From Nymphaea colorata (taxonomy: Eukaryota; Streptophyta; Magnoliopsida; Nymphaeales; Nymphaeaceae), in contig NC_045139.1 of NCBI RefSeq assembly GCF_008831285.2, positions 35,187,706-35,251,705 on the forward strand: DNA of 64,000 bases, read 5' to 3'. The translations under genes were made by a program, and so were the position numbers. Below are positions 22,056 to 43,248 of this stretch, in pieces. The notes beneath the pieces were generated by a model that saw only the letters and a program-made list of their open reading frames with translations, had not been told where the DNA came from and made no database searches. The first letter of the stretch is position 1. Every line of letters starts with the position of its first letter.

Positions 22056-22382
22056 GTTAAGTGAGTAATGTTACTGCTGGAATAATGTCTTTAGGAAACA
22101 CAAGCTTAAAAGCTTTTTGTTGTATATGATGTCAACGACATAGAATGCCAAACATTTGAACCTAATTGTTTGGGTGCAATAAAGGGAAGAATAAAGATTA
22201 GGTTTGCATTAATATGTTCTTCAATTTTGTATGTTCACATTTTTTTATTGTTTGGCATCATGAGATCTTCATATGTTGCTTACATTGTGTTATGTTTATT
22301 GGGTTTGTATATATCTAAAATGTTTAAATCTTATTGTCTATTTTAAATTCCAGGTTTTTCATGTTAGTTTATTGAGAAGAAG

Positions 22383-24870
22383 ATGAAAAATATTCAAGAT
22401 TATTTAAAAAAAAAAACAAGTTATTGATCAAGAGGGAGAAAACCAAGAGGAAAGAAACCGAAGGGGAGAAAACCAAGGGGGAAAAAAGCAAAGAGGGAGA
22501 AAACCAAAATGTTGGTTGTTCTAGTCCGAAAGCTCTTGATCTTGTTCTTTGTGACTCAGATTCTCCACCTTTTAAGTATTCAAAAATTGAAACTGCAGAA
22601 AGCATCGTGCGTGATCCAAGGTTGCGACATCCTATATGGGAGATATCAGTAAATGAGAGAGATGAAGTTAGGCGAGCATATATTAATTATGGGTCATATC
22701 AACACATGCTTCATAGATATCCAGTGTCAGGTCCTTCAAATCATCCTCGTAAATTTCAAGATTCATGGTTTCAAAAATTTTCATGGTTAGAATATTCTCC
22801 CAAGACAGATAGTGCATATTGTTTGCCGTGTTATCTTTTCAGTACTCCATATTCAAATGATAGTCCATTTATTACAGAAGAATTCGGAGTTTGGAAGAGG
22901 GTGGGTGGTAGTGAGAAAACATGTGCATTTCGTATTCATGAAGGGACAAGTCAAAATTCACCCCATAATATGAATGTGAGTGCATTTAATGACTTAAGTC
23001 GTCAAAACAAATACATAGATAAAATGATTGAAAAGCAAAGTTCAGAGCTTGTTCACAACAACCGCTTGAGATTCAAGGCATCTGTAGACACAGTTCATTG
23101 GTTAGCATTTTAAGCTTGTGCTTTTAGAGGTCATGACGAAATTTAAGTTCAATGAATCAAGGTAACTTTATTGAGTTCATTAAAACTTTAGCTAGTTATA
23201 ATGACAGAGTTGCACAAATTGTCTTGGATAATGTTCTAAAGAATGTTCAATATACATCACCAACAGTTCAGAAAGAAATTTTACATGTTTTTGCAAGTAA
23301 AGTGAGAGCTAAAATTATAGAAGAAATTGATGATGCTAAATAGTGTATTATTATTGGTGAAGCTCGAGATGAGTTCAAGAAAAAGCGAACGACTGTTGTT
23401 CTTAGATTTGTTAATAAGCAAGATCAAGTTCAAGAGCGATTTTTAGATGTTGTGCATGTAAGGGATACCACAGCAATTACTTTGAAGAATGTAATTTCTA
23501 CTTTATTGTCTCAACATAATCTTAACATTCAAGATATAAAGGATTAAGGATATGATAGTGCTAGTAATATGCGAGGTGAATTGAATGGATTGCAAGCATT
23601 AATTTTGAATGAAGGTCCTTATGCATATTATGTTCATTGTTTTGCTCACAGATTATAACTTGCACTTGTTGCAGCTTCAAAAGAAGTTGGCCATGTTCAT
23701 AAATTTTTTGAACTGTTCACATATGTAATGAATGTTGTTAGTGCAAGCAGTAAACGTAATGATGAATTGCATGAAGCTCAAGCAAATGAATTTGCATTCA
23801 AAATTGCTATAGATGAACTTGAAACTGAAAGAAGACTTAATCAAATTAGATCACTACAGCGGCCTGGTGATACTAGATGGGGATCTCATTTTGTGTTTGT
23901 GTGTAGTTTAATAAAAATGTTCAATGCAACATGTGTAGTATTAGAAAATTTAAGAGACAATGGATCAACATCTCAAATACGGAGTGAAGGTCTTTCAGCT
24001 TATGACATGATCACATCCTTTGACTTTGTATTTATTTTACACTTGGTACAACAAATTTTGGGACAGAGTGATACTCTTTGTCAGTCATTGCAAAGGCAAA
24101 GACAAGACATTTTAAATGCAATATCTATGGTTTATAATTCAATAAAGTTTCTACAAGAACTTAGGGAGAATGATTGGGATTCATTTATAGATACTATGGG
24201 AGCATTTTGTGTGACACATGATATCCCTATTCCAGATATGGATGCTCAATATTTTGTCAGAGGATCACGTTCTCGTCGTGAATGCAATTTTATTACAGTG
24301 AAACATTATCATGTCGATATTTTTATTGCTACCATTGATTCTCAACTGGTAGTGTTGGATAGTAGATTTAATGAAAATTCTATGCAAATACTACGTTTGA
24401 TGTCGACATTCGACCCTAGAGATCAATATGAGTCATTTAATGAACAAGATGCGTACACTCTTGCAGAGAAGTTTTATCATGAAGATTTTTTAGACTCAGA
24501 TCTTATGAGTTTAAATTATCAGTTGAGGTATTATAAGAATGATATTTGTCATCATCCAAGTTTTCAAAATTTGGGTACACTATCAGATGTATGACAAGTA
24601 ATGGTACATAGTAGAAAAAGTGAAGGAAATCCTTATGTATACAGGTTGTTTAGTCTCATTCTAACGCTTCTTGTCTCTACTGCAACTACAGAAAGGGCAT
24701 TATTTGCTATGAAGCTTATTAAAACAAGGTTGCGTAACAAAATGGAGGATGAATTCTTTGTAGATCGTTTGCTTTTGTATATTGAGAAAGAAATTGCTCA
24801 AATGTTTGATTCCAATGATATTATTGATGCCTTTTACAAGATGAAAAGTCGTAGAGCACAATTGCAATAG
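22383..24870 (+). pseudogene. hAT transposase (TTF zinc finger, DUF4371-like, hAT dimerisation), broken
   Basis: The product would bind the element ends and cut and paste the transposon. A first ATG at 22,383 starts a MKNIQDYLKK-type N terminus, apparently thrown out of frame in an A10 run. The main frame then runs 22,424-23,113 and holds the TTF-type zinc finger: KFQDSWFQKFSWLEYSPKTD, then CLPCYLF, and SAFNDLSRQNKYIDK. A nonsense codon after HWLAF and a frameshift near 23,113-23,150 follow. The remainder (23,152-24,870) includes GYDSASNMRGE, then HCFAHRL, the GDTRWGSH block, and the C-terminal hAT dimerisation segment STATTERALFAMKLIKTRLRN. In-frame stops occur near 23,341, 23,546, 23,656 and 24,592. 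Several look like CAA-to-TAA or CGA-to-TGA changes. Inactive. Confidence 0.92.
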
Positions 24871-28115: not shown

Positions 28116-28914
28116 ATTGCTGGTCACCAAGAATATTTTCTCATGAAAAAAGAAAACCAAAAAATAAACTACATGTTTTTAACACCAAATTGTACATTGA
28201 TCATGAAAACTTTTAAATTGTGTATTCTTAGCCACAATTTGTGGTCAAGACTTAACAAAGCGAAACCATATCGACTGTGCTTTGTTGTTCTGTATTCTAT
28301 CAGGTGAATTCAAAAAAGTCAGCAATCTTATAAACAACCAAGTAGTTTTTAGGTCACCCGAGCCAGAAAGAATCGTTTATCTATTGGGTCATAATCCAAG
28401 GTCCACCGAGTAAGTTTGGACCGTCAACGAATTACATGTTTTTTTTAGTCACATTTTGTTGAATATTAAAGTTTGCTCTTTTTTGAATTATGAGACATCA
28501 CAAACTTTACTACGTCTAGACATAAATTCATATTACATTTTATTCAGTTTTAATTGATGAAAAGATCAAGCAAGAAGTCCTGACAGACTTACCTTCTTCA
28601 TCTATTTATATAAAAAGAAAAATACATTATAAAAAGTTTATGAACTGAGTCATAATCCAACCGAGTCATGGAGTCTAACTTACTGACGTAGTGGCCTGGT
28701 CTCCAACTTACTGACGTCGTGGCCTGGTCTCCAACAAATATGAGCCTGAATCATGGGTTATCAACTATTCTCTCTCTCCCTCTTTCTTTTGTCCTCAAAT
28801 TTTTGTAATTAGGAGACTTCTTGTCTTCAAATTTTGATATAGATTCTCATTTTATCGGCTCTCTCTTGTGTTTTTTTTTTTTTCTCTCTCTGTGTAACAT
28901 CTTCGGATCAATCC
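28116..28914. other. intergenic, with a short tandem duplication
   Basis: AT-rich sequence. TTACTGACGTAGTGGCCTGG and TTACTGACGTCGTGGCCTGG stand as adjacent copies at 28,680-28,734 in units of about 27 bp. No gene seen. Confidence 0.5.
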
Positions 28915-29150
28915 AGACTAATGAATATCCAGAGATACGGATCCGACTCATTAAGAGTTTCACCATCCGGCTACAGTTTAGGGTTTAGGTCTTCGCTGCT
29001 GCTTTTCAAGTGACCCCAATTGTAAGCTGCCGCGCCGCCGCCTCGCTTCCAGCGCGACCCGTTCACGTCTAAAACGACGACCCAGGCAACACCGGGTCTG
29101 GTGGTAGACGTGGATCAGATCCTGGACCCGACGTATTGTAATGGGGACTT
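28915..29150. repeat. dispersed repeat E, copy 2
   Basis: Aligns with 12,590-12,885 through the ACCCAGGCAACACCGGG and GACGTGGATCAGATCCTGG words. This copy is more GC-rich and less eroded in its middle part. Confidence 0.5.
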
Positions 29151-29218
29151 GTTCATTCTTGGGTTTCACAGAGATCCGAGATCCAAACTCTTATGTTCTC
29201 TCTCTTACTCTCTCTCGC

Positions 29219-29264
29219 TATATATGCGTAAGTAGTGAGAGGGCGGCGGATTAAAAAACCCTAG
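29219..29264 (+). promoter_or_regulatory. TATA box and telo-box promoter of the snoRNA locus
   Basis: TATATAT at 29,219-29,225 is followed 31 bp later by AAACCCTAG (29,256-29,264). This is the plant telo-box, found near transcription starts of ribosomal-protein and snoRNA genes. A long CT-rich leader follows. Spacing would put transcription start about 29,250-29,256. The combination and the snoRNA about 225 bp downstream support a plus-strand Pol II unit. Confidence 0.6.
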
Positions 29265-29432
29265 CGTTTCTTCTCATTCCTCTCCTCGCCTCTTCTCCAT
29301 CTCTTGGTAGCTTCTTCTCTTCCTTCTCGTCTCTCTAGTGTTCCTGTTTTCTTCTCTTTACTTGCTTTTTCTGGTCTCCTGATTTCTTCTATTTCTGAAT
29401 CCAATCTCCGTGTTAGGCGTTCTTCTTCTTCT

Positions 29433-29439
<7 letters not shown>

Positions 29440-29464
<25 letters not shown>
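29440..29464. repeat. CT microsatellite in the snoRNA leader
   Basis: Pure alternating CT tract between the promoter and the snoRNA. Confidence 0.95.
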
Positions 29465-29489
29465 AAAATAGGCGGTTGGGTGTCTCCTG

Positions 29490-29569
29490 AGCAGGTGATG
29501 AATTTTTCTGCGAATGCAGTGAGGTCATCGATGATGCAACAAAATATCGAGCTTTTTAAAACTGATGCT
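29490..29569 (+). ncRNA. C/D box snoRNA, U36/snR47 type (18S 2'-O-methylation guide)
   Basis: Box C GTGATGA lies at 29,495-29,501 and box D CTGA at 29,562-29,565. A 4-bp terminal stem AGCA/TGCT closes them at 29,490-29,493 and 29,566-29,569. A C'-like ATGATGC is at 29,531-29,537. The 12 nt CGAGCTTTTTAA (29,548-29,559), two bases upstream of box D, are exactly complementary to the universally conserved 18S rRNA segment TTAAAAAGCTCG. By the fifth-nucleotide rule the target is the first A of the A5 run, which I believe corresponds to yeast A619 and human A668, the sites guided by snR47 and U36. Length about 80 nt is typical. Box D' is not clear, so a second target is not assigned. Confidence 0.85.
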
Positions 29570-29741
29570 ATGGGAGATGCCTCTCTTGTTTTCCTCTTTT
29601 TTGGGTTCCTATGGTGCTTTTCTCTCTGGACTTGGTTTTTTTTTTTTTTTACATTTCCATCGTCGTTTTGTCTTTGCGTCATTTCATCTCTTTTGAAGGT
29701 CTCTGTATTTTGAGTTTTTATGAACTTTTTGGGGTCGCGTT

Positions 29742-29819: not shown

Positions 29820-30159
29820 CAACGACGACGGCTCCCCTGTTGCGATTCTATGTTTTTGGGCTTCACGGTCCTTCCCACGATTATGGGTAATTTTTATGTC
29901 CTCCGAAGATACCTTTTTTCTTTTTGGTATTTTACCTGAGACTCTGAGAACCTTTTTTTCAATGTATATGCGTTTGTCTTTGGTTGTTCACAACTATCAA
30001 ATCGATAGATTTAAGCACATGATTTTTGTTGCCACCTACAACTATTTGGGTTGCAGCGTCAACATCTTTCGAACTTAGTTTTTGAATCAAAATAAGTTTT
30101 CTAAATCAGATTTTGATTTTTGATTAATTTTGGATTTGTTGCGTCCATTGTGGATCTCA
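29820..30159. other. downstream of snoRNA candidates, nothing further identified
   Basis: Mixed T-rich sequence, possibly the 3' part of the snoRNA precursor. No third C/D pair or coding exon was recognised. Confidence 0.4.
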
Positions 30160-30500
30160 GATTAATGGATTTAAAGTCGAACCCCACCGTCCGGTCTTAA
30201 ATTCTTGATGGATTTAAGATCGAACGTCACCATTGGATCTTAAATTCATCGATTTGAACATTAAACTCGTGGTTTTTTAACATGTAGCATGAATTGCAAA
30301 TCCATTTAGTTTGTTGAAACTGAAGATTTTTTAAAATACCAGCTTTCGATTGAGATCGGAGGCTATCAGCAAACCTTAAAAGGCTGCTGTTAATAGGCTT
30401 CTGTAAATAGCAGGATGATATTTTGAAGAAACGAAGTCCCTGTTGTTTGTCTATCATAAGAAGCACGGTTAAAACCATTAGACTACTAGCCAAACACAAA
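30160..30500. repeat. dispersed GGATTT/GATCTCAAATC repeat, copy 4
   Basis: GGATTTAAAGTCGAACCCCACCG and GGATTTAAGATCGAACGTCACC are near-direct repeats about 45 bp apart within the copy (30,168 and 30,212). A GTTGAAACTGAAGAT...TTTTAAAATA segment is shared with 57,700-57,725. Confidence 0.45.
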
Positions 30501-34857: not shown

Positions 34858-36179
34858 GACCAATGAACCACGAAAATTTTTCAAATAAGGGACATGTATA
34901 CACTGGCAGAGCTAGAAAAAATTTTTAGAGAGAGATTTCTATGTCAAAATAATGGAGGTCTATGTATGTATCAGAATAAGTATTTGAAAATGTTAAATAT
35001 AAAAATAAAGAAACATTGACGGGTTGGGGCTCCGTCTCTGCATCTATACCAATGCTGAAAGAAGAACATTTAGTTGCTTAGACACATATTGAAAGGAGCA
35101 TTGGGCTTGCTTGGTTGACACCCTTAAATGCGTTCTAGAAAGCAAAAATACTGCTTTGCCTCTAAAATGTGTTTTATTTAGATGAAGGTTGAAAACTGGG
35201 TCATTGACAAACCAAGTTTTGACACAACTTTTTCAAAAGAGTATGAATAAATCTTTTCGCAGGAACATCATTTTGATATTTGATCTTGCCATTCATACAC
35301 ACAAGCAGAGTTTTAAAAACTAACTAAAAGCTATGTTTTCAGCAAAAAAAAAAAAAAAAAACAACGTTTTTGATGGTGCCATCCAAACACAATCACTGTG
35401 TTACTATTCCAGAAAAAATGGTATGATTTTGAATATTGTTTCCAAATCCAACAATCAAACACCGGATATAAAAACATACCATGTTTCCTGAAAAATTGTA
35501 TTTTGTGGGTGTCATCATCACTTCTTGCACAAGCAAATGTTCAAAAAACATGGGGACAGAAGGATTCATTTTTAAGGGATTTTCTCCCTGTATCCTAAGG
35601 GGCATAGGTTTCCAATAAACTTAATTACTAGAAAAAGAGAAGATGAAAGACTACCTATGTTGAACCGTCCACTGGACATCAAGAAGCATTACCGCAGGCT
35701 CACTGCTCATTGCCGAGCTCCATCCAGTGAGCTAAGAACCTGGTTTAGTGTGGTGTGGTCCTCCGCCAAGCAATCCGGATCCAATAATAGAAGCTAATGC
35801 TTAATGAGTTTATCCTGTCCCTTGACCAGGGTAGAGGCAGGTGTGGGCAATTGCCCACACAAACTCATAAAGAGTGTTATTTTTCATATTGGTAATGGAG
35901 GGTCACTTTCTTCATCTACATATTGATGTCATTTAAAAATTTAAAATTTTAAAACTAGTGCCCCTTACCCTATTATTGTGCAGTAAAAGGTCCAGACAAG
36001 TCTTTTTAGGGAAGATAAAAGACAAGAATAATGCAGGGGAGATGGAAGGCACCCATTGGGGTTTCACACTAAGAGGTGCGTAACTATTAAAAAGCAATTT
36101 GGATGACAATATAAACCCGGTTTTAAACCCTAGTTAGACTGAGAAATCACGTCTCAGTTTAGAAAACCAACTCTGTATT
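34858..36179. other. block A spacer with possible hAT-type relics
   Basis: CACTGGCAGAGCTAG near 34,902 and GGGTAGAGGCAGGTGTGGGC near 35,830 look like hAT-type left ends. The second resembles 46,922 (GTGGCAAAGAC...GGGCAACTGCCC). Neither has a certain right end. No gene is seen. Confidence 0.4.
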
Positions 36180-36255
36180 GTTGCCAAGGGGCGCAGGCAG
36201 GGGCATGTGTGCAGCGCATCCCTAGTTCGACTCACGGGGCTATACTCTTATACCA
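36180..36255 (+). repeat. tRNA-derived relic (SINE-like)
   Basis: GGGGCGCAGGCAGGGGC resembles an A box. About 25 nt later CTAGTTCGACTCACGG resembles a B box and T-loop. No cloverleaf could be completed. Confidence 0.35.
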
Positions 36256-36389
36256 AAAAAATGGTGATTTCTACATATAAGTTGAAGCACGCGACTGTTC
36301 CACTATCTGACACTGAAGCAGCTTTGTACCCTGAAGGCAAGGGGAATGTAAGAAGCTTCGCCTCTGATGCTGAAACAGTCAAGTCATTG

Positions 36390-36980
36390 TTCGGTCGACA
36401 GTTGGCCGAATATGAATGCAATTTTCCTGTTCAGCCAGAAGCCAATTTATCTCTAGGGAGCCCTGTCCTACCAACCTTCAGTCAACAGATGAGGAAAAAT
36501 GAGGCCAACAATTTCTTTTTCCTTTTTGTTTGTTCACATTCACGGGCCAAAAAGTCTAACCTCTGAATTGAAGTGGGGCCAAACTGAACCTGAATCCAAA
36601 CAATATATGATACAACTAAAAATAAGCCAACTAGGGTGGGGCCATGGCCCACGCGCCCCCCCCCCCTCTCACCTTTTCCATGGCTAGATATCTTCCAGCC
36701 ACCCACCAGCCGAAAAAATAGGCCAACTAGCGGGGAGAACCTCCACAGTAAGCCCATTTGCTAGCCACACTGGCGGAGAAATAATGTGCTTCATTTTGTT
36801 TACTAGTTCTTTGGGTTTTGATTTCTTATGGCGTCCAAACACACCACAAAAACCGTGCCATTGGCAATCTTAGTTTTCCAAAAACTTGATTTTTGCATAG
36901 CAGATCCAGGAATTCATAAAACGGGGTTTTAGCCCATGCTTTTCAAACAGGACCATTACTTCATTCCTAGACAGGCACGT
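36390..36980. repeat. GGCCAACTAGCGGGG repeat unit, copy 0 (block A)
   Basis: Shares GAGGCCAACAATTTCTTTTT, TATCTTCCAGCCACCCACC and GGCCAACTAGCGGGGA with 50,770, 53,800 and 55,540. This copy carries an extra stretch of about 110 bp (36,545-36,660) starting near CCAAAAAGTCTAACC, including a C10 run, and has a degraded hairpin arm. Confidence 0.75.
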
Positions 36981-38056: not shown

Positions 38057-38545
38057 TGTTAGAAAACGTAATGCGGGCCCTAACTCAGCTACAAACTCAA
38101 ATTTATGCGGAGAAAATCTAGCAGAGTCTCGACGTCCAAACTGATACTTAATAAGAACTCGACTCATGCAGTGAACTTCCACACCTAAATACCTCCAAGC
38201 CCGACGCTCTTGCACTGAGCACAACTCTCACACACCTCACAAGCTCACACACCTCATACGCTCACAAAGTGAGCACGTAAATGACTCAACCACACTCACA
38301 ATTTTTTCACACACACTCACTCTTTTTCACACGTACCCCTCAACCATCATCCCCTATTTATAGGAGAGGAGGTCGGTGGATGAAGCTTCCACCGATTTCC
38401 ACATTGTTTCTTTTTTAATTATTTTTCTTTCTTTTTAATCAGTACCGACATTATAACCACCGACTTAAAGGAGAGGCTCAAAGCCTCATGAGTCTTCTCG
38501 ACTCATCTCAAGAGAGTCGGTGGGAGAGTCGGTGATGACTCTACA
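38057..38545 (-). repeat. 3' LTR of young copia
   Basis: 489 bp. In element orientation it starts TGTAGAGTCATCACC and ends TTTTCTAACA, so it has canonical TG/CA ends. A CTATAAATAGGGG motif on the minus strand (near 38,350-38,363) is a good TATA box for element transcription. Confidence 0.97.
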
Positions 38546-42759: not shown

Positions 42760-43248
42760 TGTTAGAAAACGTAATGCGGGCCCTAACTCAACTACAAACT
42801 CAAATTTATGCGGAGAAAATCTAGCAGAGTCTCGACGTCCAAACTGATACTTAATAAGAACTCGACTCACGCAGTGAACTTCCACACCTAAATACCTCCA
42901 AGCCCGACGCTCTTGCACTGAGCACAACTCTCACACACCTCACAAGCTCACACACCTCACACGCTCACAAAGTGAGCACGTAAATGACTCAACCACACTC
43001 ACAATTTTTTCATACACACTCACTCTTTTTCACACGTACCCCTCAACCATCATCCCCTATTTATAGGAGAGGAGGTCGGTGGATGAAGCTTCCACCGATT
43101 TCCACATTGTTTCTTTTTTAATTATTTTTCTTTCTTTTTAATCAGTACCGACATTATAACCACCGACTTAAAGGAGAGGCTCAAAGCCTCATGAGTCTTC
43201 TCGACTCATCTCAAGAGAGTCAGTGGGAGAGTCGGTGATGACTCTACA
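42760..43248 (-). repeat. 5' LTR of young copia
   Basis: 489 bp with the same ends and TATA motif as the 3' LTR. It differs from that copy at five positions, two G/A and three T/C, with no indels. Confidence 0.97.

Follow-up and report, generated by a model that had tools for sequence, protein, structure and literature searches.

Human U36 copies sit in introns of RPL7A. Chicken U36 copies are likewise placed in RPL7A introns in the table of PMC2653536, a source in which human U36A and U36C split the 18S and 28S targets and the two guiding functions are described as joined or split between lineages. U36 has already been described in plants, and the same table gives the 18S site to plant U36Ia and the 28S site to plant U36IIa. 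Among the aligned sites in PMC8817022, the 18S base concerned appears as Am619 in yeast (snR47), Am668 in human (U36A/B), Am621 in Arabidopsis, in that paper's own numbering, and Am612 in Dictyostelium, and it is listed as methylated in all four. Yeast snR47 is given as serving both 18S Am619 and 25S Am2220 (PMC5199042), and the Arabidopsis methylation table assigns 18S A623 to U36 (PMC8053127, Table 1).

The Nymphaea colorata locus described here resembles these systems on the 18S side. Like Arabidopsis U36, it is a plant C/D snoRNA in which D+5 points to A623 (PMC8053127), the base also served by human SNORD36A/B as 18S A668 (PMC8817022, PMC2653536) and by snR47 as A619 (PMC5199042, PMC8817022). 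The spacing between guide and box D is that of the Rfam consensus, as in human SNORD36A/B. In contrast, 25S A2221 and G2237 are among the assigned targets of Arabidopsis U36 genes (PMC8053127), and snR47 also guides 25S A2220 (PMC5199042), whereas no such guide was found at the Nymphaea locus.

The window, by which we mean the whole 64-kb stretch analysed (C2:35187706-35251705 of an assembly of 408 Mb and 783 contigs), was scanned with cmscan against 4227 Rfam families. The sole match above the gathering score was to SNORD36 (RF00049), at 29489-29571 on the plus strand, with 40.7 bits against a gathering cut-off of 30 and positions 1-77 of the 77-position model aligned. The E-value was 0.0038 for 4227 families over 64 kb (0.00023 at 4 kb and 0.00094 at 16 kb); rescaled arithmetically to one family over 408 Mb, it is about 0.006. 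A covariance-model check with the Rfam SNORD36 model had been proposed in a preliminary description of this DNA, and the assignment made there is borne out by this score. The locus is confirmed at the sequence level as an intact-looking plant U36 (SNORD36 family) box C/D snoRNA, predicted to guide one 18S rRNA methylation, and is very probably a working U36 snoRNA gene targeting 18S A623 (Arabidopsis numbering). It is a new but ordinary member of the known SNORD36/U36 family, lying amid transposon remains. The parts of the snoRNA are as follows.

29489 to 29571, plus strand: extent of the snoRNA according to the Rfam SNORD36 model (40.7 bits, gathering 30)
29490 to 29493, plus strand: 5' arm of the closing stem, AGCA, pairing with 29566-29569 (letters; fold)
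29495 to 29501, plus strand: box C, GTGATGA (letters; aligned in the Rfam match)
29519 to 29522, plus strand: candidate box D', GTGA, one mismatch to CTGA, with no convincing guide before it
29531 to 29537, plus strand: candidate box C', ATGATGC, one mismatch to RTGATGA
29548 to 29559, plus strand: 12-nt antisense guide to 18S, TTAAAAAGCTCG, with base 29557 as D+5, opposite the first A of AAAAA
29562 to 29565, plus strand: box D, CTGA (letters; Rfam match)
29566 to 29569, plus strand: 3' arm of the closing stem, TGCT (letters; fold)

Box C, box D and the 4-bp closing stem read exactly as first described, and the exact 12-nt guide to 18S, CGAGCTTTTTAA at 29548-29559, does end two bases before box D. 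A small hairpin, CTGC-GAAT-GCAG, occupies 29508-29519, roughly at the position of the 25S guide and box D' in the family consensus.

The guide fits this genome's own 18S fragments (L005/L018, L014/L019 and L016) exactly, and the base opposite D+5 is the known U36/snR47 site, so that the earlier identification of the complementary segment as the 18S target of U36 and snR47 stands. Specifically, base 29557 lies opposite the first A of TTAAAAAG, which corresponds to Arabidopsis A623. With that A set to 623, the stated letter is found at 5 of the 5 listed Arabidopsis sites between 545 and 615. Of the full set of 17 18S sites listed as far as 623, 7 have the stated letter, against 12 when the numbering is shifted by one (first A = 622); we attribute this to the 18S copy used here differing in length by one base somewhere upstream of 545. 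The rRNA genes met in the assembly are truncated or degenerate pieces, with fragmented 25S, among them L018 (C3:246000-255900), L028 (C11:22793600-22803500) and L024 (C7:12038500-12048400). In them, 18S breaks off after ~775 nt; the final 1000 nt or so of 18S lie outside the comparison. Among 129 neighbouring 80-nt plus-strand stretches, none reaches 12 or more Watson-Crick pairs to the L018 18S piece, and two reach 11.

Taken singly, the elements of the locus are weak evidence. The 12-mer guide alone occurs 36 times in the assembly, no more often than its reversed control (45), or about 0.006 times per 64 kb by arithmetic, and the boxes with a closing stem of at least 4 bp occur at three places in the window on both strands, the U36 locus included. 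Such counts speak for a chance arrangement of boxes and an 18S-like 12-mer; such an arrangement is nevertheless scarcely credible, given the score and E-value of the family model, the combined pattern of box C, guide and box D, and the fall of D+5 on a known methylated base. What lifts the locus above chance is the family model, together with the guide and its position next to box D. In the 408-Mb assembly, this was the only place found with exact boxes and the full guide; the patterns demand exact boxes, and a copy with altered boxes could escape them. Box C with a 9-nt guide core and box D was found at three places, against one for the reversed control, and the other two lack the CGAG half of the guide. 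Guide plus box D with up to two mismatches gave four places, against 14 for the reversed control; the three near matches (one on C7, two on C10) lack a TGATGA in the 90 nt before them.

The preliminary description had called the locus U36/snR47 type. The likeness holds for the 18S base, which is shared, and not for the 25S A2220/2221 guide of snR47, which is absent here. While the Rfam SNORD36 consensus spacer before box D' fits 25S, a guide to 25S A2220/2221/3703 at D' is missing from the Nymphaea locus, the duplex reaching -3.8 kcal/mol against -16.7 for the consensus spacer (25S letters not drawn from the genome's own pieces). A 25S guide is not a required feature of U36, since human U36A and U36C divide the two targets; with one recognised guide, directed to 18S, the locus resembles U36A/B and not the double-headed yeast snR47. 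A 25S-directed U36 elsewhere in the genome was sought with two exact guide patterns, built on the Rfam consensus and those same 25S letters, and neither gave a match (0 and 7 for the reversed controls). The genome's own 25S pieces, which are degenerate or truncated copies, were searched for the 25S segment expected to hold the U36 site, without success; D' may have a target elsewhere in rRNA. Two further matches were discounted, one of 12 nt close to the 3' end of degenerate 25S copies and one of 9 nt in L023, within a stretch unlike 25S by eye.

The decay of the 25S guide relative to the family consensus, together with the transposon remains all round, could be read as the mark of a dead or retroposed U36 pseudogene, the active gene being elsewhere. 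No second copy was found, however: a 101-nt query with the snoRNA matches itself alone in the assembly, and in a 1701-nt query with its surroundings the snoRNA and the sequence upstream match only themselves, bar one 30-nt match in the CT-rich stretch. The latter query has 18 matches in all, the others being itself and 16 short ones within 30208-30339. Moreover, the boxes, the stem and the 18S guide are all intact while the intervening sequence departs from the consensus, and a promoter-like stretch is present. A pseudogene is accordingly highly unlikely, and U36 is most likely present here as a single-copy gene. A genome-wide RF00049 search, in which 70 of 104603 candidates were scored, missed even the known copy, returned nothing in its 14 control genomes either, and bears on copy number in neither direction. 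Beside the locus, no second U36 of a rice-type cluster (U36Ia-U36IIa-U36IIb, as given in PMC5122169) scored above the Rfam gathering score in the window. Cluster mates sought by Rfam and by boxes plus stem likewise included none above its family cut-off, the only other snoRNA matches between 22000 and 38000 being weaker ones (ceN65, 20.2 bits against 48; SCARNA7, 18.2 against 65).

A second pairing to 18S involves 29540-29552, where 13 nt (12 Watson-Crick, one G-U) fit 18S at about 234-246, some 386 nt upstream of the guide target, and overlap the guide by five bases. The snoRNA could in principle act as a switch or chaperone, holding one 18S region and then handing over to the other. When the shared guide bases are removed, the best 18S pairing is 8 Watson-Crick pairs, which 92 of the 129 neighbouring stretches also reach, and for this reason our already low estimate for such a role was lowered somewhat further; we consider it very improbable. 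The 13-nt pairing may well be chance.

Outside the snoRNA proper, the fold extends the closing stem into an outer stem that the preliminary description did not mention, and motifs that may belong to a promoter lie upstream.

29480 to 29488, plus strand: 5' arm of the outer precursor stem, 9 bp with 29572-29580, three of them G-U (fold; role putative)
29572 to 29580, plus strand: 3' arm of the outer precursor stem (fold; role putative)
29219 to 29224, plus strand: TATATA, a TATA-like box some 270 nt before the snoRNA (role putative)
29256 to 29263, plus strand: telo box AAACCCTA, shortly after the TATA-like box (role putative; PMC3022908, PMC4660826)
28976 to 28989, minus strand: second telo motif, GTTTAGGGTTTAGG as read on the plus strand (role putative)

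The fold as a whole has a z-score of -1.76, its stability being matched in 11 of 200 shuffles. The flank duplex has -16.3 kcal/mol and is equalled in 5 of 9129 same-spacing placements taken every 7 bases; scanned at every base, 33 other placements, at nine other places in the window, are as stable. Telo motifs number 10 in the window, two of them in the 600 nt preceding the snoRNA, a concentration equalled by random placement in 0.33% of 10000 trials. No Site II element (TGGGCY) occurs in 28400-29489, the nearest one, at 29857, lying downstream. Telo boxes, often with Site II elements, are reported at plant snoRNA genes, both intronic and independent (PMC3022908, PMC4660826), and Table 3 of PMC3022908 counts snoRNA loci with a telo box but without Site II association.

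A protein-coding host near the snoRNA was sought among 10 frames between 28978 and 33889, none of which has a match above the Pfam cut-off; the one match is DUF6699, at 14.8 bits against a cut-off of 24.1. The frame at 36138-36563 also has no Pfam family above cut-off. Because TATA-like and telo motifs lie upstream and no Pfam family exceeds the cut-off in the 10 nearby frames, we favour an independent non-coding transcription unit, the snoRNA probably being the product of its own gene rather than of an intron. In this it would differ from human SNORD36A/B, intronic in RPL7A, as the Nymphaea locus has no recognised protein host. An account that departs from ours only in how the RNA is made would have the same working snoRNA cut from an intron of a coding or non-coding host gene, the CT-rich stretch upstream being the 5' UTR. 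That sequence is indeed leader-like, and telo boxes are likewise a mark of plant genes for ribosomal proteins and of those that carry snoRNAs in their introns (PMC3022908). The lack of a Pfam family above cut-off in the 10 frames and in the frame at 36138-36563 argues against it, although a host with small exons or a non-coding one would escape such a search, and we regard an intronic origin as unlikely.

The preliminary description had also presented the snoRNA as the only feature in 64 kb with the look of a functioning host gene. The Pfam scan comprised 40 stretches, two of which repeat a frame with other ends, and it agrees with this claim insofar as transposon domains alone exceeded the cut-off: zf-RVT, RVT_2 (twice), SH3_retrovirus, Pol_BBD, integrase core, gag and zinc-knuckle. 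For the window as a whole the claim is backed in part, the scan having reached 29 of the 61 open frames of at least 95 aa plus nine shorter ones near the snoRNA; small exons would escape it. Two 300-nt direct repeats, 38057-38356 and 42760-43059, are 99% alike and 4703 bases apart, and between them lie copia-type frames (RVT_2, integrase, gag) on the minus strand; together they make up a young-looking LTR element. A decayed coding region at 22376-24860, in which the frame 22376-23110 is weakly like DUF4371, below cut-off, may be a remnant of a hAT-like transposase.

From the boxes, the stems, the family score, the exact fit to the genome's own 18S and the uniqueness by pattern, all observed directly, we infer how the predicted U36 may be transcribed, processed and used in methylation. 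Pol II would start near 29250, at a putative TATA/telo-box promoter, and produce a non-coding precursor in which the outer 9-bp and inner 4-bp stems join the ends of the snoRNA. Boxes C and D would be bound by the C/D proteins, the 12-nt guide would pair with pre-18S rRNA, and fibrillarin would then 2'-O-methylate the A opposite D+5, that is, 18S A623 in Arabidopsis, A619 in yeast and A668 in human.

The value of the finding is mainly one of annotation, as this is probably a functional non-coding gene within a transposon-rich stretch that an annotation based on open reading frames would miss. It is also the sole place found in the assembly, by the patterns used, that could guide the 18S methylation common to yeast, human, Dictyostelium and Arabidopsis, and it would for that reason be a clean single-gene target for testing the role of this methylation in a plant.
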